A stretch of DNA of 8,774 nucleotides, from NCBI GenBank assembly GCA_029261305.1, contig JAJDBO010000300.1, forward strand, positions 1 to 8,774, written 5' to 3'. This document shows positions 549-8,717 of this stretch, one piece after another. This DNA is from Nitrospirales bacterium (lineage in GTDB: Bacteria; Nitrospirota; Nitrospiria; Nitrospirales; UBA8639). The position numbers were made by a program, and so were the translations under genes. How positions within the stretch are numbered: the stretch's first letter is position 1; the number at the start of each line of letters is the position of its first letter. The notes under the pieces were generated by a model. The model was not told the DNA's origin. It saw only the letters and a list, made by a program, of their open reading frames with translations, and searched no databases.

Positions 549-877
549 TTTATCACTCATCGTTCATGGCTCGTTACGCCATGTCTAATCAATGGCCCTG
601 TCACTTTCTCCTACCTTTTGTTTCCTGTCTCCCGCCCAGTCCCACATTTACCATTATCATTTTCCACATCACCATTACACTTTCTGCGTTTGCTCCTAAC
701 CAAGACCCTAATAGTCTTGATCGCTGTTGGGTCCAAGTACAGAACCTTCCCTCAAAACGGAATGATCATCACTGACTTACCCCACAAAAACTTTTTCGTG
801 GTGTGAACCATTTTGTCAGCAGCCCCGACTCATCGACGATAAGCGGGCCAGGTGTTTCTCAATTTTTCCACTTTAAC
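549..877. other. Intergenic stretch before the S8 peptidase gene
   Basis: I see no credible gene here. Roughly 598-700 is strongly pyrimidine-rich on the plus strand. There is a small dyad, CAAGAC (701-706) with GTCTTG (714-719), and another, CCAC (782-785) with GTGG (798-801), flanking A and T runs. A weak sigma70-like promoter for the peptidase gene could be TTGTCA (813-818) with CGATAA (837-842) and an 18-nt spacer. The -10 element is poor, so this is only a candidate. Confidence 0.3.
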
Positions 878-884
878 GAAGGAG
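878..884 (+). promoter_or_regulatory. Shine-Dalgarno that fixes the S8 peptidase start
   Basis: GAAGGAG lies 6 nt before ATG 891. The open frame extends upstream to a GTG at 852, but the extra 13 codons have no ribosome site of their own. The protein from 891 begins with a standard signal peptide, so 891 is the likely start. Confidence 0.85.
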
Positions 885-890
885 AATACG

Positions 891-3863
891 ATGAAGCGCA
901 ATTCATCAATCAAAGAATTTCATAGAATTCGTAGCTATTCTAAATCGGTTAAGTTTGGAATTGGCATGATCTCGTGGGTCTTGGTGTCAGTCACCGTTCC
1001 AGCGATGGCAGCAAAGGATACTTTTAGCCGGGAATTAGCAAATACCCTACAATCAAGTTCTAAACTCCTATCATCCGCTAATAAGGCCACGGTCTTAAAG
1101 AACTTAAAGAAAAGGGAGCGAGCTCTGCACCTGAAAAATGATTTTTATTATTTCAAAGGAAAGCGAATGACGCTTTCTCGATCGCTTGACGAACTCGCAA
1201 TTCGATTTAAAAAACGAATGACCTCCCAAGAGGAGGACAGCGTGGTGAAGGACTACACCTTGTCTGGGAAAGCGATGGGCAAGGTAGATCTCCCTAGCGG
1301 GGCCTATTCGGTGTATTCCCTCCAAGAGAAAGAATTGGCAGCGGAACAAGACCTCCAATTGTTGATGGATACTTTGGAACACAACGAGGATATCGGGTTT
1401 GTCTCGCCGGTGTTTGTCAATGAAGAAACGGGCACGAAAATGACCTTAACGCAAGAACTTGTGGCGAAGATCAGATCGGATCGCACCAAAGAAGATCTTC
1501 AATCCGTTGCGGAATCCCTGGGGTTGTCTATTGATCATCTCATTGCGGGGACAACGGATCAGTTTATTCTTCGAGTCAAGGACTCAAAACAAACCGATCC
1601 CTTGGAAGCGGCTAATAGTTTGCATAACAGTGGGGTGGTGGAATGGTGCGAACCAAATTTTATTCAAGAATATAAGCTTTTTTCGGTGCCCAATGATCCC
1701 CTCTATCCGATGCAATGGCATTTGGATAATTCCGGCCAGGGTGGTGGATTTCCTGGTGCATCAGTCGAGGCGTCGGTCGCATGGGATTTAGAACAAGGCA
1801 GTCCAGATATTACAATTGCCGTTTTGGATGACGGCGTACAATTGACGCATCCGGATTTGGTCCCAAATCTGTTCTCGAATCCTGACGAGATTCCGGACAA
1901 CGACATTGATGATGATGGGAACGGTTATGTCGACGACACGCATGGTTGGGATTTTGCTAATAAGGACAACGACCCAAATCCGCATTTGAATTCAGGAGGT
2001 GTTGGTCCAGATTCCCATGGAACCTCTGTCGCAGGTGTGGCTGCAGCAAAAGGAAATAATAATCTTGGGGTCACAGGTGTGTGCCAAGACTGCAAGATCT
2101 TGCCAGTGAAAATCGCAAACAACCCAGGTGCAGGGCAGAATTTCATCAATTTTTCCAATGTTCAAGCTGCTGAAGCCATTCGATATGCCGCGAGTCTTGC
2201 TGATGTTCTCAACAATAGTTGGGGTGGAGGTGCACCCTCCAATGTAATTCAAGACGCCATCCAATTTGCCTCCACGCAGGGGCGAGGGGGCAAAGGCTCG
2301 GCGGTATTCTTTGCCACGGGAAATAGTGCAAACGGAGCCGGGGCCTTAGGGCTGAATATTCCAGCTGGAACCCATCGTATCATGTGGGAATATTCAACAG
2401 ATGCAAATGGCCAATCCGTGGGTGATGATGCGACATGGTTAAGTTGGGTCCGTTTTCCAGGAGGAGAAGTCGTGGATTTTGAAAAAGGCACCCTTCCTAA
2501 TGGTTGGACGACTGGCACAACCAATGGATGGGTGGTGGTGGAAGATGCTGTGCATGGGGATGAAGGCCGATGTATTTACCATCCCGTCAAATCCGCAAAA
2601 ATTGGTCCCAATCAAACCTCGGTATTGGAGGTTGTGAAAACAGTTGAAGAGGGAAGGTTAGATTTTTATACCTGGATTTCCAGTGAACGTGAAAGTGATG
2701 GGCTTCGTCTGTTCATCGATTACAACAATGATGGTTCAATTGATTTTGAGTCAGTCCTCCTTTCCGGTGTGCCGGCCACCAACCAAAATGTCGGGTACCC
2801 GGCTGCGTTTCCGGAAGCCATAGCCGTAGGTGCTAGTTCTAACTTTGATTGTCGGTCAGGCTATAGCCAATTTGGTCAGGAACTCGACCTTGTGGCACCC
2901 AGTGGTGGAGGGCCCCTGAATCACAAAATCACCACAACCGATCGGACCGGTCCGGCGGGGTATGATCCTGCGGATTACCTTCCGAATGAGCCGGGATCAA
3001 ATGGATTCAGCGGAACTTCTTCTGCGACTCCCTTGGTCGCGGGAATCGCAGGGCTCATGCTATCCAGAAATCCCATGCTAACCGCTGAAGAGGTCCGTGA
3101 GATTTTACATGACACATCAGATCAAATCGGTCCGGATCCTTACGTTGGAGGAAGGAATGACCGCTATGGTCATGGCCGAGTAAACGCCTTCCGCGCTGTA
3201 CAATCAGTCACCCCACCAATCCAAATCATAGCACCAGAAATGTCTGAGCCAGTTCCTGGTTCAACATTATCCGGGTCAAAAGAAGTGTTTACATGGACAA
3301 CTGGTAAAGGCACTTCTCAATACCGGCTCACTGTGGGGTCAACCCAAGGAGACAACGACATTTTCGATAGTGGTGAAACCCTATATACGACGATTTCTAT
3401 CAGCAACATTCCCATGAATGGCCGAACCTTATTTGTTCGCTTGTTGTATCAAGCCAACGGGGAGTGGCAATTAATGAATTATCAATACAAAGCGGCCAAA
3501 CACACTCAAGTCGTGACAGTGGATGATCTCCTTGGCTATTGGTGGCATCCAGCAGGGAGAAACTGTTCCTTTGGTCAATGCACGGACTTTGGTTTTGTGT
3601 ATGGATTCAACAAAAATCGGTGTTTTGGTGGGTGGTGCGGCGGAAGCCGCCAGGGTTGGATTAACACGGGTTCGGGATGGCGGACGACTAACGTTGTCCC
3701 TCATTCTTTCGCCTGGCGAATCCAAGAAGATCGGTTGGTCCTGTTTTTCTTCAATAGCTACCGCTTCGAAGTCTTTCAGCTAGGAGATTACGATCCTGCT
3801 AATTGGAAACTCAGACTGAGTTCGCGCGCCTACCCGAGTGCCATGTTTTTCAAACTGAAGTAA
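891..3863 (+). CDS. Exported S8 (subtilisin/kexin-like) serine peptidase, multidomain
   Basis: This is a secreted or surface serine endopeptidase of 990 aa. Residues 1-40 are a signal peptide ending AMA. Residues 41 to about 290 form a long propeptide that ends in the usual VEWCEPN and NDPLYPMQWHL segments (C253, N268). The catalytic domain, about 296-770, has Asp313 in LDDGV, His376 in SHGTSVAG, oxyanion Asn478 in ATGNS and Ser710 in SGTSSATP. All catalytic residues are intact, and a calcium-loop-like DIDDDGNGYVDD is present. Between Asn478 and Ser710 sits an extra module (about 490-626). After the catalytic domain come a fibronectin-like module with VPGSTLSG near 783-793 and a C-terminal domain from about 876 with two CX4C motifs (C892/C897, C911/C916). 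The kexin-type P-domain is not seen. The family and activity are secure, but the substrate is unknown. It could mature other exported proteins here or be a degradative enzyme. Confidence 0.95.
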   Translation: MKRNSSIKEFHRIRSYSKSVKFGIGMISWVLVSVTVPAMAAKDTFSRELANTLQSSSKLLSSANKATVLKNLKKRERALHLKNDFYYFKGKRMTLSRSLDELAIRFKKRMTSQEEDSVVKDYTLSGKAMGKVDLPSGAYSVYSLQEKELAAEQDLQLLMDTLEHNEDIGFVSPVFVNEETGTKMTLTQELVAKIRSDRTKEDLQSVAESLGLSIDHLIAGTTDQFILRVKDSKQTDPLEAANSLHNSGVVEWCEPNFIQEYKLFSVPNDPLYPMQWHLDNSGQGGGFPGASVEASVAWDLEQGSPDITIAVLDDGVQLTHPDLVPNLFSNPDEIPDNDIDDDGNGYVDDTHGWDFANKDNDPNPHLNSGGVGPDSHGTSVAGVAAAKGNNNLGVTGVCQDCKILPVKIANNPGAGQNFINFSNVQAAEAIRYAASLADVLNNSWGGGAPSNVIQDAIQFASTQGRGGKGSAVFFATGNSANGAGALGLNIPAGTHRIMWEYSTDANGQSVGDDATWLSWVRFPGGEVVDFEKGTLPNGWTTGTTNGWVVVEDAVHGDEGRCIYHPVKSAKIGPNQTSVLEVVKTVEEGRLDFYTWISSERESDGLRLFIDYNNDGSIDFESVLLSGVPATNQNVGYPAAFPEAIAVGASSNFDCRSGYSQFGQELDLVAPSGGGPLNHKITTTDRTGPAGYDPADYLPNEPGSNGFSGTSSATPLVAGIAGLMLSRNPMLTAEEVREILHDTSDQIGPDPYVGGRNDRYGHGRVNAFRAVQSVTPPIQIIAPEMSEPVPGSTLSGSKEVFTWTTGKGTSQYRLTVGSTQGDNDIFDSGETLYTTISISNIPMNGRTLFVRLLYQANGEWQLMNYQYKAAKHTQVVTVDDLLGYWWHPAGRNCSFGQCTDFGFVYGFNKNRCFGGWCGGSRQGWINTGSGWRTTNVVPHSFAWRIQEDRLVLFFFNSYRFEVFQLGDYDPANWKLRLSSRAYPSAMFFKLK
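2358..2768 (+). other. Beta-sandwich module inserted in the S8 catalytic domain
   Basis: These are residues 490-626 of the peptidase, between the oxyanion Asn segment and VGYPAAFPEAIAVGAS (634 on), which are normally close together in subtilases. The first part, IPAGTHRIMWEYS to WVRFPG (490-524), matches the usual end of a MAM/jelly-roll-like module common in bacterial secreted proteins. The second part, VDFEKGTLPNGW to LRLFIDYNNDG (528-614), matches the usual beginning of the same module. The order is therefore tail then head, as in a circular permutation. A DYNNDGSIDFES stretch (610-621) resembles a calcium-binding loop. The family match is from memory of sequence patterns, not from a search. 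Confidence 0.6.
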
Positions 3864-3972: not shown

Positions 3973-4827
3973 GTGAGAAAAGTACGAGTACGACAAAAAT
4001 ATGAATTGCTGAGTGATCTCCAAACCTTGGTTTGGAGAAACCTTTTCAATTATAGTGGAAATTCTTTCCGCCAATTGCCATTAATCAAGTTGGGGATTTT
4101 CCAAGTGCAAGTTTGGAAAACGTTATTTGTAGTATTGGGGATAATGGCTTTTGGCCTACCTTTGCTCGGACACGCGACCACCTTAGATATTGGCCAGAGG
4201 TCGCGGGTGTTTTTACCCTTAAAATCCTTCAAAGATATGCGGGACGGCAACATGGTTCGGCAGGCGTTTGATTACTCCTGCGGAGCCGCTGCTTTTGCGA
4301 CCCTGCTCACTTACGGCCTTGAGGATCCGATCAGCGAGCAAGAGGTTCTCGCTCAAGCGTTTCAAAATCTTTCTCAAGACGAGGAGGCACTACGGAAAAA
4401 AGAAGGGCTGTCATTGTTAGACTTACAAAAAATTGCACAAGGCCGTGGGCACAAAGCTCTGGGGTTTCGGCTTAAGCCCGACGCATTGGTGAAACTTCCA
4501 GGCCCAGTCATCATCTTCATCAAACCTCGCGGCTATGAGCATTTTGCGGTCCTAAGAGGAATTCGAGGAGACCGCGCCTATGTAGCCGATCCGTCATTGG
4601 GCAATGTCAGAATTCCCATGTATAAATTTCTGCATATGTGGTTGGACGAAAAGGGGAAAGGCATTATTTTTGTGGTCGAGCGTGCTGACGGGGCTTGGTC
4701 CGAAGACTATGCCCTTCAACTACCCCGACACGGGGAATGGCAGCCAGAAGTGTTATCGACGCGTCAATTACTCGAAATCGGCCGATCATCTCCCCCTGTA
4801 TTACATCCTTTTCAGGTATTACCATAG
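3973..4827 (+). CDS. Exported C39 family (double-glycine type) cysteine peptidase
   Basis: C39 peptidases cut after double-glycine leaders. They usually sit at the N-terminus of ABC exporters, but here the domain stands alone and appears to be exported. Counting from GTG 3973 (284 aa), the catalytic elements are Gln97 (oxyanion), Cys103 in DYSCGAAAFATLL six residues later, His190 in EHFAVL and Asp206 in VADPSLG, so the triad is complete. Residues 45-68 form a signal peptide (MQVWKTLFVVLG when started at GTG 4105) ending GHA. The start is uncertain: GTG 3973 has only a weak ribosome site, while GTG 4105 has GGGGA 8 nt upstream and puts the signal peptide at the N-terminus. The stop is 2 nt before the next ATG, which indicates an operon with the barrel gene. 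Stand-alone exported C39 proteins such as FapD of the Pseudomonas Fap amyloid system are a precedent; the substrate here is inferred. Confidence 0.88.
   Translation: MRKVRVRQKYELLSDLQTLVWRNLFNYSGNSFRQLPLIKLGIFQVQVWKTLFVVLGIMAFGLPLLGHATTLDIGQRSRVFLPLKSFKDMRDGNMVRQAFDYSCGAAAFATLLTYGLEDPISEQEVLAQAFQNLSQDEEALRKKEGLSLLDLQKIAQGRGHKALGFRLKPDALVKLPGPVIIFIKPRGYEHFAVLRGIRGDRAYVADPSLGNVRIPMYKFLHMWLDEKGKGIIFVVERADGAWSEDYALQLPRHGEWQPEVLSTRQLLEIGRSSPPVLHPFQVLP
4017..4038. repeat. Perfect inverted repeat near the C39 gene start
   Basis: TCTCCAAACC (4017-4026) and GGTTTGGAGA (4029-4038) form a 10-bp dyad with only TT between them. A 2-nt loop is too tight for a full RNA hairpin, so it may be a dimeric protein-binding operator. 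If translation starts at GTG 4105 it lies in the leader or promoter region; if at GTG 3973 it lies within codons 15-22. Confidence 0.5.
4027..4056 (+). promoter_or_regulatory. Candidate promoter for the C39-barrel unit
   Basis: TTGGTT (4027-4032) and TATAGT (4051-4056) are separated by 18 nt. The -35 element overlaps the dyad at 4017-4038, which would suit repression or activation by a dimeric regulator. This placement only makes sense if the C39 gene starts at GTG 4105. The -35 match is weak, so confidence is low. Confidence 0.28.
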
Positions 4828-4829
4828 CC

Positions 4830-6212
4830 ATGCTCAGAAGAAATTTTTCATGCTATTTTATGGTCGTCTTGGCAATAACCTTGAGTTCCACTCTGCTAAT
4901 TATAGAACCAGCTAGGGCTGAGGGCAGACAATCCAATGCTATCAAAGCCGTTCTCACCTTGGAGGAGACTGCGAGCCTGTTACAAATCAATCCAAAAATA
5001 CTTGCCCGAATGGCTCGTCAACGCAAAATTCCTGCTCGTTTAGTAGGAGGTTACTGGCGTTTCAATCGCAAAGCGGTGATGGAATGGTTGCGAGGAGAAA
5101 ACCTAGAGACAAGTTCTGAACAATTCAAAATCGTAAAGAAACCTGGCAGAACAATAAATGACCAAGATTCCCTAATACCATTGGATCCAGGCATCAGAAA
5201 GCATTCAGCGAAATTTCCATCCTCTCACTCCATTTCAGAACCTGAACTTCCCAAGATTAAGGGGCGAGGCACGAAGTCCCTAAGTGGTGGAAAAACCGAG
5301 GAAATTGGAGAGAAACCCGAACTGTCGACAGCCGATGAGGTGTTTCTTCGGCAACAACAGGTGTTACTCAAGCCCAGCGAAGTGACCTTTGAAATAAGCC
5401 TTTTTTACACCAAAGCAGAACAAGACAGTTTGCTCGTGATCCCTCGAGGCGATCTGGGCTTTTTCTCTCAAATCAACTCAACTCAAACCGGCCAGGATGT
5501 CTTTACGGCCGTATACACCGGGCGATACGGCCTGGCGGATGACCTACAGTTGTCGGCAAGTATTCCCCTTATTCACCGGATCACTGATACCACAAGCACT
5601 TCGACTCTGGTTCCCTTAGGAATTCCCCAAAACCAAACCGGTAGCACAAGTCTCACGGAATTTGGCAGTTTAAATGTCGGACTTCGGTATACCTTAGTTC
5701 GCGAGGGATATGGGTACCCTGATGTCATTGTGAATGTGGATGGGATCATTCCAACCCGGCATAGCTCGTATGGCATTGCAACGGGGCTCGCCCTTATTAA
5801 GCGGTTTGATCCTGGTGCCGTCTTTGCAAATTTCAATTATCAGCACACCTTCAGTCGAGAATTACTGGATACCACACGTCTGCAGCCGGAAAACACGTTT
5901 ACCACTGCTTTTGGATATGCGCTGTCAATGAATGACACACTGGCCATCAGCAATTCAGTAACTGGGGTTTTTACAACACGGACCACCTTTAATAATCCTC
6001 TGCTTCCAAGCCTACCCGCACAAGAATTGATTAGCATGCGCTTCGCCCTCACAGCCTTGATCACCGAAAAACTCTATGCTGAACCGTCAGTAAGTTTTGC
6101 GCTCAACGGTCCTTCGAATGTTACAATGGGCGTAAACTTTCCCTACACCTTCACGATCCCAGCGTGGGAAACCTGGTTTCGGACCCAGGCATCGTCAGAA
6201 CCTTCCCCGTAA
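4830..6212 (+). CDS. Exported excisionase-like HTH domain fused to an outer-membrane beta-barrel
   Basis: Predicted outer-membrane protein of 460 aa. The frame is open from 4695, but ATG 4830 gives a clean signal peptide (1-30, MLRRNFSCYF to PARA) and lies 2 nt after the C39 stop; only a weak AGG precedes it, so coupled translation is likely. Residues 42-91 match the excisionase/MerR-like HTH_17 consensus, with LTLEETASLL, a recognition-helix region, IPARLVGGYWRF and AVMEWL. Residues 92-168 are a polar Ser/Lys/Pro-rich linker. From about 169 (DEVFLRQQQVLL) to the end, alternating hydrophobic/polar strands with Thr/Ser-rich loops indicate a barrel of the transporter or phenol-degradation (MetA-type) porin-like kind. 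Being exported, the HTH fold cannot act as an ordinary DNA-binding domain. I infer a role as channel plug or as recognition module for a client processed by the neighbouring C39 peptidase. Barrel family by pattern only. Confidence 0.85.
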   Translation: MLRRNFSCYFMVVLAITLSSTLLIIEPARAEGRQSNAIKAVLTLEETASLLQINPKILARMARQRKIPARLVGGYWRFNRKAVMEWLRGENLETSSEQFKIVKKPGRTINDQDSLIPLDPGIRKHSAKFPSSHSISEPELPKIKGRGTKSLSGGKTEEIGEKPELSTADEVFLRQQQVLLKPSEVTFEISLFYTKAEQDSLLVIPRGDLGFFSQINSTQTGQDVFTAVYTGRYGLADDLQLSASIPLIHRITDTTSTSTLVPLGIPQNQTGSTSLTEFGSLNVGLRYTLVREGYGYPDVIVNVDGIIPTRHSSYGIATGLALIKRFDPGAVFANFNYQHTFSRELLDTTRLQPENTFTTAFGYALSMNDTLAISNSVTGVFTTRTTFNNPLLPSLPAQELISMRFALTALITEKLYAEPSVSFALNGPSNVTMGVNFPYTFTIPAWETWFRTQASSEPSP

Positions 6213-6456
6213 ACAATCAGGGCCTCTAATCCAATCGTCAAACGAAAAGAAACTGTGGCTTCTGTGCTCTTGAGATTAGAATTTAGGATGGGTAACACCG
6301 CAAGGTAATGAATCAAAATCGATGGAAGAAAAAAGTTTCCGAGGCTTGTCAAGCTTAGATTTATATCTAGAAATTAGTAGGCCACTGTATCCCAAAATAA
6401 AAACTAGGGGAGACGAGGTCGAGCCTTTGGACGTGTTTCATTTGTTCTCGTGGTCA
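6213..6456. other. Long untranslated stretch after the barrel gene
   Basis: I see no gene with a ribosome site. About 245 nt separate the stop from the terminator, which is long for a plain 3' UTR. A possible -35 (TTGTCA, 6346-6351) has no good -10 partner, and a small dyad TAGAT-TTAT-ATCTA lies near 6356-6369. A small RNA ending at the 6457-6505 terminator is possible but not supported further. Confidence 0.3.
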
Positions 6457-6505
6457 AAAAGGAAGAACCCCCGTACCGGGTGCCCTTCCTTTTCTATTTT
6501 TTTTT
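6457..6505 (+). terminator. Intrinsic terminator of the C39-barrel unit
   Basis: AAAAGGAAG (6457-6465) pairs with CTTCCTTTT (6485-6493), with an inner ACCC/GGGT stem (6467-6470, 6478-6481). It is followed by CTA and nine Ts ending at 6505. This is a classic rho-independent terminator for plus-strand transcription. The A-run on its left side may let it work partly in the other direction too. Confidence 0.88.
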
Positions 6506-6923
6506 AAGAAACAGGTACCTGCCGACTTTTAACATGCAAATAAATATGTATTGTCTGACCTAGTAACCTACTTAATTTTCGGTAATCATTGGCGGTAGCT
6601 CTGGGAGCTTATATCATTGTTACAGATTTTCGTGTCACCTGATATGGTGTAATTTTATTTCCCTCCATAATACATGAATCAAAACTCTGGCGGGGCATAG
6701 CATTTTGCTTGAAAATTTGGTTGGACTCAGCTGCCTTGGTTTGTGCAAAGTGCCTAAGTCTTGAACCTCCTGCCACCATTTCATACCTCGTATGCTGTCA
6801 CATTTTCTGGACTATCAAATGCGGAGTAGCACACGAGGGAATGGCATCTTTTTGGTGGGAATAAACGGTGAGAGTTTTTCAAAACTACGATCAACCCAGA
6901 TAGGAATTCTGATTCTCAAACGC
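6506..6923. other. AT-rich convergent intergenic stretch
   Basis: This lies between two convergent transcription units. I find no credible gene, only a 10-bp palindrome CAGGTACCTG (6512-6521) and a short CACC/GGTG dyad around TGATAT near 6635-6650. The plus-strand ORF from 6792 runs antisense into the 202-residue gene and has no ribosome site. Confidence 0.4.
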
Positions 6924-6959
6924 ATTGCGGGAGAAGGATGTTGTTCCTTCTCCCGCAAT
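6924..6959 (-). terminator. Strong hairpin terminating the GG-leader protein gene
   Basis: ATTGCGGGAGAAGGA (6924-6938) pairs perfectly over 15 bp with TCCTTCTCCCGCAAT (6945-6959) around a 6-nt loop. It sits 35 nt downstream of the minus-strand stop at 6995. On the minus strand only GCGTTTG follows, so the U-tract is short. It is placed exactly where a terminator or 3'-stabilising structure of this gene should be. Confidence 0.72.
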
Positions 6960-6994
6960 AGATTGGATGACGTGTTGAGTTCTTCCTATAAATA

Positions 6995-7603
6995 TTATCG
7001 GCAATACGCCAGACCGCAACCAATATTTACACCCGCAAGTCTAAGGCCCCCATATGTTCTTTGCATTCCTTGGTTGTATCTGTAGTTCATTTGGGCTTGC
7101 GCTTGCCTTTGTTGATACTGGTATTGTTGCATTTGTTGTTGATAGCGCATTTGAGCATAGGGATTGTAGGTGGGACCCTGTGGCATGCCATTAGTCTGTG
7201 AACCTACAGATGGGTAAGCGTTGCGATAGGGTGCAACCGCGATCGCGGCCGAAGGGGATTGACTAATCATATCTAAAGCCGCACCCACCACTGTCTTATG
7301 CCCAGCAGCTATTCCATTTATATAACGAAAACCCGAGTTTACAACCTGCGCTTGAGCCTGAGGGTACAAGGGGACAAAGTTAGGTGTACCCTGCGTCGTT
7401 CGAATCATGCTGTTGTTTAACCAAGGGAAAAACACTTGCTGACCGAATACGCCCTTTCCCTCTACGGCATCCATTTCGGTTTCCGTCATGGCTTCTGCCT
7501 GAATTCCTTCGAGAATGGAGAAATTGTCTTCGGCCACGGCGGTTGTGCTCATACTCGCGACCATGGCCAACCCGATAATTGATGTGATGAGTGTGTGTTT
7601 CAT
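6995..7603 (-). CDS. Exported Gln/Tyr-rich protein with a double-glycine-like leader
   Basis: A 202-aa protein of no family I recognise. The start ATG (7603-7601) follows a strong AGGAGGG (7614-7608). Residues 1-24 are a Sec signal peptide ending TAVA. Right after it, residues 27-51 contain FSILEG, MTETEMDAVEG and KG, the pattern of double-glycine leaders (L/M-S/T-x-x-E-L/M-x-x-V-x-G-G), with GKG at 49-51 in place of GG. Residues 93-122 are Gly/Ala-rich and hydrophobic. Residues 146-185 are dominated by Gln, Tyr, Met and Asn (for example YQQQMQQYQYQQRQAQAQ), a prion- or amyloid-like composition. The protein ends CGLAYCR, a CX4C pair (C196, C201) that may form a disulfide. It lies convergent to the C39-barrel unit. 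I infer that it is a client cut by a periplasmic C39 peptidase and exported, perhaps as a fibre subunit or bacteriocin-like effector. Coding status is firm; function is hypothesis. Confidence 0.85.
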   Translation of the reverse strand: MKHTLITSIIGLAMVASMSTTAVAEDNFSILEGIQAEAMTETEMDAVEGKGVFGQQVFFPWLNNSMIRTTQGTPNFVPLYPQAQAQVVNSGFRYINGIAAGHKTVVGAALDMISQSPSAAIAVAPYRNAYPSVGSQTNGMPQGPTYNPYAQMRYQQQMQQYQYQQRQAQAQMNYRYNQGMQRTYGGLRLAGVNIGCGLAYCR

Positions 7604-8012: not shown

Positions 8013-8717
8013 TTAATTTACATGTCTTCGCTCATTTTTCCAGGTTTTGTAATATTCCCAGTTTTCTTCCGATCTCTTTCGTTCAAGATTTCTTTTGGCA
8101 GTTTCTGTCTTTATCTTTGACCCGGCCAATTGAGCATCTATCAAAGGCGCCATTTCCTTCGCCCATTTAGCGCAATGTTCATCTATGGCCTTGTCTTCAG
8201 CACTATAGTTTCCATTCTGCCTTCTCTCCCATCGAGCCATGTCTTCAAATATTCCATGGGCAAAATCATTGACGGCATCCCCTGTGCGGGCATTATCTGT
8301 AGTGCAATTATAATTTTTGACATTAGATGAATCGGAAAGAGGGTTGAATGTTGGGTCCTTCTGCGTTTCACGTGCTCTGGGGCCTGGACGTGGGCGTTTC
8401 ACCCACTCATCAATTTTTCTCCCAATGTCAAAAATTGATCTTTCAAAATTTCCAAATTGTTGTTTATTCTGCCGTCTCATCGTTTCTAAATACAGCCTCT
8501 CACGTTCTTGACTCACTCTTGACTGGCATATGTCCAATGGTTCGCCCATGCGGCACCCGAGAGACCCTCTGACAATTGAATTGATCTCCTCAAAATCCGC
8601 TGTGCCGTTGTTGTCATATGAGGGGGAAGTGTCCCACGGCTCACCATAAGCGGGAGAAAATAATAGAATTCCCAGAATGAATCCTCCTACCAATAATTTT
8701 TCCATATGATTTTTCAT
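8013..8717 (-). CDS. Exported hypothetical protein, charged and mostly helical
   Basis: A 234-aa protein of unknown family. The ATG at 8717 follows AGGAGG (8727-8722) by 4 nt; the next Met (8705) is 16 nt away and less likely. Residues 1-25 are a signal peptide (MEKLLVGGFILGILLF core, cleavage near SPAYG/EPW), with no lipobox. The mature protein is hydrophilic. Residues 66-108 and 172-232 are rich in Arg, Lys, Glu and Gln and probably helical or coiled. The middle (109-135) is Pro-rich. Four cysteines (55, 64, 138, 182) fit two disulfides. The stretch DNNGTADFEEI (35-45) weakly recalls an EF-hand loop but lacks the first ligand. It is co-oriented with the GG-leader gene and 409 nt upstream of it, so it probably has its own transcript. 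It has no double-glycine motif beyond GG in the signal core. Confidence 0.8.
   Translation of the reverse strand: MKNHMEKLLVGGFILGILLFSPAYGEPWDTSPSYDNNGTADFEEINSIVRGSLGCRMGEPLDICQSRVSQERERLYLETMRRQNKQQFGNFERSIFDIGRKIDEWVKRPRPGPRARETQKDPTFNPLSDSSNVKNYNCTTDNARTGDAVNDFAHGIFEDMARWERRQNGNYSAEDKAIDEHCAKWAKEMAPLIDAQLAGSKIKTETAKRNLERKRSEENWEYYKTWKNERRHVN

Follow-up and report, generated by a model that had tools for sequence, protein, structure and literature searches.

The locus examined here raises the question of what connects an exported C39 peptidase, an outer-membrane barrel protein bearing a helix-turn-helix (HTH) domain and a Sec-exported client protein carrying a double-glycine-type leader, all encoded within an 8774-nt stretch from a Nitrospirales bacterium (contig JAJDBO010000300.1; the whole stretch is referred to as the window). 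A prediction made from the letters alone, referred to as the original prediction, had tied client to peptidase by proximity and motif. This link is strengthened by the presence of a client with both Sec signal and leader at 14 of the 15 loci at which an HTH-barrel gene lies beside a C39 gene, across phyla. The anatomy, homology, linkage and leader conservation of the system are matters of observation, and it is likely that the three genes constitute a leader-addressed, two-step export route of a Fap hybrid type.

Components of the system

The exported peptidase with a complete triad described in the original prediction is confirmed by a match to Pfam Peptidase_C39 (6.8e-15) and by residues Gln97, Cys103, His190 and Asp206 (284-aa numbering), which are invariant in 20/20 rows of the C39 alignment. 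Its best fold match is 6mpz (TM on target 0.75), a double-glycine protease whose structure was determined together with a leader peptide, and the protein combines this fold with the Gln, Cys, His and Asp of a C39 double-glycine peptidase. Alignment with relatives sets in at the GTG at 4105. The resulting 240 aa equal the size of P0017 and P0018, and the gene therefore probably does not begin as early as 3973. In NCBIfam the protein matches FapD (4.7e-28) and FilB (1.2e-23), both far under the equivalog or exception cut-offs; since it scores 98 bits against the FapD model NF058616, whose cut-off is 330, it is considered a FapD homologue and is not called FapD.

The barrel gene begins 2 nt after the peptidase stop codon on the + strand and, as had also been foreseen, bears an HTH domain (HTH_17, 1.2e-10). 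In the structure model the protein consists of a signal-like N-terminus, HTH_17 at residues 41-89, a low-confidence linker at 90-162 and the barrel at ∼163-442. FapF is its best structural match, and FilC matches below cut-off (NCBIfam, 7.3e-7). The likeness to Fap drawn in the original prediction therefore stands, although "analogous" was too weak a term, as the parts match FapD and FapF and are homologues. The third component, a convergent Sec-exported client with a double-glycine-like leader, was likewise recovered (Table 1).

Recurrence of the three genes

With C39 alone as bait, 486 stretches matched, giving 469 relatives, of which the best 80 loci were kept. A barrel match lies within 2 kb of C39 at 78 of the 80 (76 at E ≤ 1e-3, L031 and L067 being weak) and none was found within this distance in L012 and L020. 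The HTH is present on the barrel gene in the ten best loci, L001-L010 (in L002 on the first of two frames), and in 0 of the other 70. A survey of 1750 genomes in seven groups, with a cut-off of 1e-10 in two and 1e-25 in five, added four HTH-barrel genomes beyond the seven seeds (G343, G399, G837 and G1687); with the loci of these four and the window, HTH-barrel loci number 15. Nitrospirota was considered as the home of the system and rejected, as no joining of HTH and barrel occurs among the matches listed for 295 genomes of the phylum. Plasmids gave six weak barrel matches, none covering over 80% of the query.

Clients were found in the window, L001, L002 (two), L003-L008, L010, L154, L155, L157 (three, in tandem) and G1687 (three, at L189). 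In L155 the client lies 5.8 kb from C39; at the other 13 loci the nearest is within ∼2.2 kb. The co-occurrence of the three families in other genomes, which the original prediction had proposed as a check, is also evident from BLAST families in the 15 neighbourhoods, where C39 recurs in 12, the barrel in 13 and the client in 9, the next-commonest clusters reaching 3; a TPR-like family is found near L002, L155 and L189 (3/15). Equal contig sizes suggest further shared contigs, relatives of barrel and client coinciding at 15,987 and 3,692 and those of barrel and C39 at 2,661, 2,894 and 100,772.

Leader profiles gave a corresponding result, with counts that rest partly on training loci, short motifs and mostly draft genomes. 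A profile built from the window family only matched 11 of 16,889 open reading frames (ORFs) in the 80 loci at E ≤ 0.01; 10 of these 11 lie within 1.5 kb of C39, a region holding 3,698 ORFs, and all lie within 3.5 kb. A second profile, built from 15 leaders, was run on 13 of the 15 genomes (those of the window and L010 being excluded) and produced 18 matches under 1e-9, 17 of them at the system locus; G1687, which lies outside its training, gives three matches. The remaining match is an orphan client in G343 (L190 8027-8347, +), whose leader ends VEGKG; it is located 2.2 Mb from the system locus beside a transposase-like frame. Eight further matches fall between 0.0017 and 0.1, among them G1687:C192, a second C39-barrel locus (L191) without an HTH match. 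Within 201 genomes of the order of G002, the leader is detected in 4/4 genomes with an HTH-barrel and in 1/197 without (Fisher, 7.6e-8), the exception, G417, having a client close to one end of a 3.9-kb contig that carries no C39. As the four HTH-barrel genomes were in the profile training, it is the near-absence from the remaining 197 genomes that counts. A looser pattern occurs in 22/848 signal-bearing ORFs within 3.5 kb of C39 versus 6/1105 farther away (p 1.5e-4; 2.7e-4 without the window); of the six far matches, four form an Oxalobacteraceae leader-like group (L041, L047, L050, L059) and two appear chance-like (L057, L058). A chance motif is disfavoured by the enrichment of the leader profile near C39 and by its whole-genome specificity.

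The leader and its cargo

The window leader has Glu at -8, Met at -7, Val at -4 and Gly at -2 relative to the predicted cut, the spacing of double-glycine leaders, in which E is found at -8, L or M at -7, V or I at -4, G at -2 and G, A or S at -1. The glycine expected immediately before the cut in the original prediction was not found, as this residue is Lys; across 19 clients at HTH-barrel loci it is K in 9, Q in 7 and E in 3. The leader consensus is FSxLxGVxAxxMSxxEMxxVxG followed by K, Q or E. Conservation of the client is highest in signal and leader while the remainder drifts: in an alignment of the window client with P0011-P0015, identity is 31 to 40 of 50 before the cut and 30/114 to 76/144 after it. 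The same division is observed between paralogs, with 47/47 and 17/61 residues identical before and after the cut in L002, 37-40 of 57-60 and 7-9 of 25-27 in L157, and 29-36 of 47 and 39/115 to 68/167 in G1687. G1687 also encodes a paralog (L189 3204-3854, minus) which retains the mature part of client a but is missing the leader. Its signal ends AHA and is followed by QSIYD-QIMAG, while client a has GK followed by TDIFA-QIMAG, so that the gap corresponds to the leader to within a residue. This single case points to the start of the mature protein independently of the motif.

The predicted mature part measures 13-79 aa in 28 of 31 clients tabulated, the others having 123, 141 and 152 aa; inclusion of the three G1687 clients (118-179 aa) gives 28/34 under 80 aa. 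Mature parts contain 0 or 2 Cys in 29/31 clients and 1 in 2/31, which suggests disulfides. The window client is Gln- and Tyr-rich, with 23 Q, 11 N and 13 Y in 152 mature residues and 15 Q and 8 Y within 45 residues near its end. A Gln/Asn-rich cargo, which the original prediction named for Fap, does not hold generally here. One client (L004 9391-9903, +) is a leader-tagged enzyme with a CHAP peptidoglycan hydrolase domain (8.7e-16), the one clear domain to emerge when ten clients were scanned against Pfam and ten proteins against NCBIfam, and those of L001, L017 and L157 read as basic peptides.

One explanation is a divergent Fap amyloid operon: the window client would be a fibre subunit, exported in the manner known from Pseudomonas, and its leader would be incidental. 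The homology of C39 and barrel to FapD and FapF, the composition of the window client and the three long G1687 clients, seemingly rich in Q, N, G and Y, are in its favour. It is nevertheless improbable, as the client is most conserved in its leader and is without a Fap family match in Pfam or NCBIfam, and as most mature parts are short, one cargo being a CHAP hydrolase. Among the five window proteins scanned (Pfam, NCBIfam), a FapF-type barrel and an exported FapD-type C39 are present while FapB/FapC-type repeat subunits and an adjacent FapE are absent; no match to FapA, FapB, FapC or FapE was obtained. Because the cargo varies, "amyloid export" is too narrow a name, and the system is better described as a leader-addressed route with swappable cargo.

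Alternatively, export may be bacteriocin-like, the cargo acting on other bacteria and Sec, C39 and barrel together replacing a peptidase-containing ABC transporter. The C39 fold, catalytic residues and leader spacing are shared with such transporters (PCAT, LahT, ComA); in contrast to them, there is no ABC or membrane part here, the protease is exported, and in the client a Sec signal precedes the leader, with K, Q or E at -1. Short mature parts with 0 or 2 Cys, the basic peptides and the CHAP cargo agree with this possibility, as does the L016 leader region, which weakly matches the CTB bacteriocin family (0.014). We hold this possibility to be real but short of probable: no immunity gene recurs among the neighbours of the 15 HTH-barrel loci, the client of the window is a long protein rich in Q and Y, and a known domain is found in one cargo only among ten scanned in Pfam.

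The HTH domain and the wider family

HTH_17 and the low-confidence linker take the position of the periplasmic coiled coil of FapF, as judged from the model with no coiled-coil predictor run; coiled coils are reported in all FapF homologues studied (PMC6173795). The conserved recognition-helix Tyr of cytosolic relatives is found in 0/20 barrel HTHs versus 28/28 short HTH proteins, the latter counted from a listing, and mean HTH charge is 2.7 in barrel HTHs versus 4.5 in cytosolic relatives. As the window HTH is itself +7, low charge was dropped as an argument for the window. The system suggests a DNA-binding fold in a new role outside the cytosol. We also considered that C39 cuts the linker of the barrel to open the pore, the client being unrelated. 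The length of this linker is compatible with such a cut, and cleavage of FapF by FapD is discussed in Rouse 2017 (PMC5557850). No common cut motif is visible by eye in the aligned linkers, whereas the leader recurs with C39, and this explanation is very improbable.

A C39 tree of 89 rows, without L189 and with L009 as a fragment, separates a 50-row half, mainly Fap-type loci, from a 39-row half containing the window (support 96/92). The HTH is explained by one change (78/78), and long branches meet. In the window half, clients occur in 12 of 25 HTH-less rows (L011, L016, L017, L019, L021, L025, L028, L029, L031, L045, L159, L160). A requirement of the HTH for leader clients is consequently rejected, and the HTH represents an addition in one group; the pairing of HTH-barrel and leader client put forward originally thus holds at 14/15 HTH loci but is not exclusive. 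An upstream leader block is also present in the HTH-less L019, L159 and L160 and is therefore no HTH-specific element. A core profile from HTH loci matched 8/778 ORFs within 2.5 kb of C39 versus 0/1,262 farther away in the window half (p 4.4e-4), and 4/5,676 in the other half. Marinobacter and Oceanospirillales loci have no strict leader motif within 3.5 kb of C39, in agreement with Rouse 2017 (PMC5557850), where Fap proteins showed no canonical C39 site.

L028, L029 (Helicobacter), L031 and L045 (Marinifilum) are HTH-less C39-barrel loci of Campylobacterota and Bacteroidota, whose small Sec proteins have leaders ending in motifs like ENEMKETKGE. Leader-like proteins are also carried by L038 and some Oxalobacteraceae loci in the other half of the tree. 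At the Oxalobacteraceae Fap-type loci L041, L043, L047, L050, L054 and L059, proteins consist of a signal plus LDDAELSQVSGGDGISF, short-leader-like and weakly FilA-like.

Proposed mechanism and relation to known systems

What follows is inferred as regards the cut and its position, passage through the barrel, what the HTH does and cargo function. The client would be made with a Sec signal followed by the double-glycine-type leader. Sec would carry it into the periplasm, where signal peptidase would remove the first tag. Periplasmic C39 would then bind the leader and cut at GK, GQ or GE, as motif, linkage, fold and the leaderless paralog suggest, and the freed client, by homology, would exit through the FapF-like barrel. 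The HTH, in place of the FapF coiled coil, would probably dock client or peptidase at the pore or act as a gate, which is a guess. In the window the exported protein would most likely belong to the cell surface or matrix; elsewhere this route seems to be used for small peptides and, in one case, for a CHAP cell-wall hydrolase.

Several observations weigh against this scheme. K, Q or E at -1 in 19/19 clients differs from the G, A or S of canonical C39 sites, so that either the pocket differs or the cut occurs one residue earlier, and the L004 client has Ala at -2. Signal peptides were assigned with a crude rule based on hydrophobicity in place of a trained predictor. The window client is convergent, 2.2 kb from C39 and outside the operon. 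L009, the sole HTH-barrel locus without a client, has a C39 gene split between two frames, which could reflect decay of the system or a draft error, and no client is seen in 13/25 HTH-less rows of the window half (L012-L015, L018, L020, L022-L024, L035, L158, L161, L162).

Among known systems, Fap likewise pairs an exported C39 peptidase with a polypeptide barrel of the trimer type, with FapF the best structural and FapD the best NCBIfam match, the latter below cut-off. It differs in its coiled coil, where the HTH is found here, and in the C39-type leader of the client, reported absent from Fap proteins (PMC5557850). The Fil pilus system of Acinetobacter (FilA-FilB-FilC) is related through the sub-cut-off FilB and FilC matches and, at L043, a leader-like protein that weakly matches the FilA profile in the leader region (0.0092). 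In NCBIfam no FilB or FilC equivalog scored above cut-off and the client had no match; no HTH was seen in the FilC match, and gene order and cargo differ. Edman determination of the FilA N-terminus is mentioned in PMC3498257. RiPP recognition elements are winged-HTH leader binders. They resemble the present system in having an HTH-type fold in a leader-peptide system; here, by contrast, the HTH is HTH_17/BldC-like and outside the cytosol, and leader binding is putative. More speculatively, and in our estimate rather unlikely, the periplasmic HTH is a DNA-binding fold recruited to the outer membrane as a receptor for the leader or the C39-leader complex, so that the pore opens only for addressed cargo, making Sec signal, C39 leader and FapF-type barrel a general Gram-negative export pathway. 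If so, its swappable cargo would include matrix proteins as well as hydrolases and small peptides with antibacterial action.

Rouse 2017 and 2018 (PMC5557850, PMC6173800) describe the FapD target as unclear or undetermined, and a 2025 review (PMC12822426) states that FapD is "thought to" process FapE and FapF. Here, relatives of FapD accompany clients with a C39-site-like tag, and cleavage therefore becomes testable with purified parts. Colocalisation of fapD-fapF homologues in five additional phyla was reported by Rouse 2018 (PMC6173800); the present analysis adds the HTH and the leader-bearing client. No HTH-barrel and no Sec plus C39-leader client is described in the literature searched, a search whose coverage excludes most subscription journals. 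A Sec signal plus leader beside C39 and barrel also offers a route to finding secreted peptides.

Layout of the window

Table 1. Positions of the system's genes and of their domains in the window
Feature	Position	Strand	Remarks
C39 peptidase gene, FapD/FilB-like	4105..4827	+	probable GTG start 4105, 240 aa; open frame from 3973
Outer-membrane barrel gene, FapF-like, with signal peptide and HTH domain	4830..6212	+	460 aa
Barrel protein signal-like N-terminus, MLRR...ARAE	4830..4922	+	sequence reading; helix 3-24 in structure model
HTH_17 domain, residues 41-89, after signal peptide of barrel protein	4950..5096	+	Pfam 1.2e-10
Barrel domain, residues 163-442	5316..6155	+	
Client gene, 202 aa, convergent to C39/barrel pair	6995..7603	-	
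Client signal peptide, residues 1-24	7532..7603	-	crude, by eye and hydrophobicity
Client double-glycine-type leader, residues 25-50, predicted cut after K50	7454..7531	-	
Predicted mature client, residues 51-202, 152 aa, Q/Y-rich toward C-terminus, two Cys	6998..7453	-	
Stretch containing a strong hairpin, just downstream of client gene	6915..6970	-	-30 kcal/mol, z -8.05

A secreted S8 subtilase gene (852-3863, +; Pfam 9e-44) lies just upstream of C39 on the same strand; its family does not recur among the neighbourhood clusters of the 15 HTH-barrel loci. A 234-aa protein with a signal-like N-terminus (8013-8717, -), without a Pfam or clear NCBIfam match, is encoded 410 nt upstream of the client on the same strand. 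Promoters and terminators were not above shuffled-sequence level, and a stem that follows the barrel gene (6450-6510) is unremarkable (z -1.37). The hairpin downstream of the client gene perhaps marks the transcript end.

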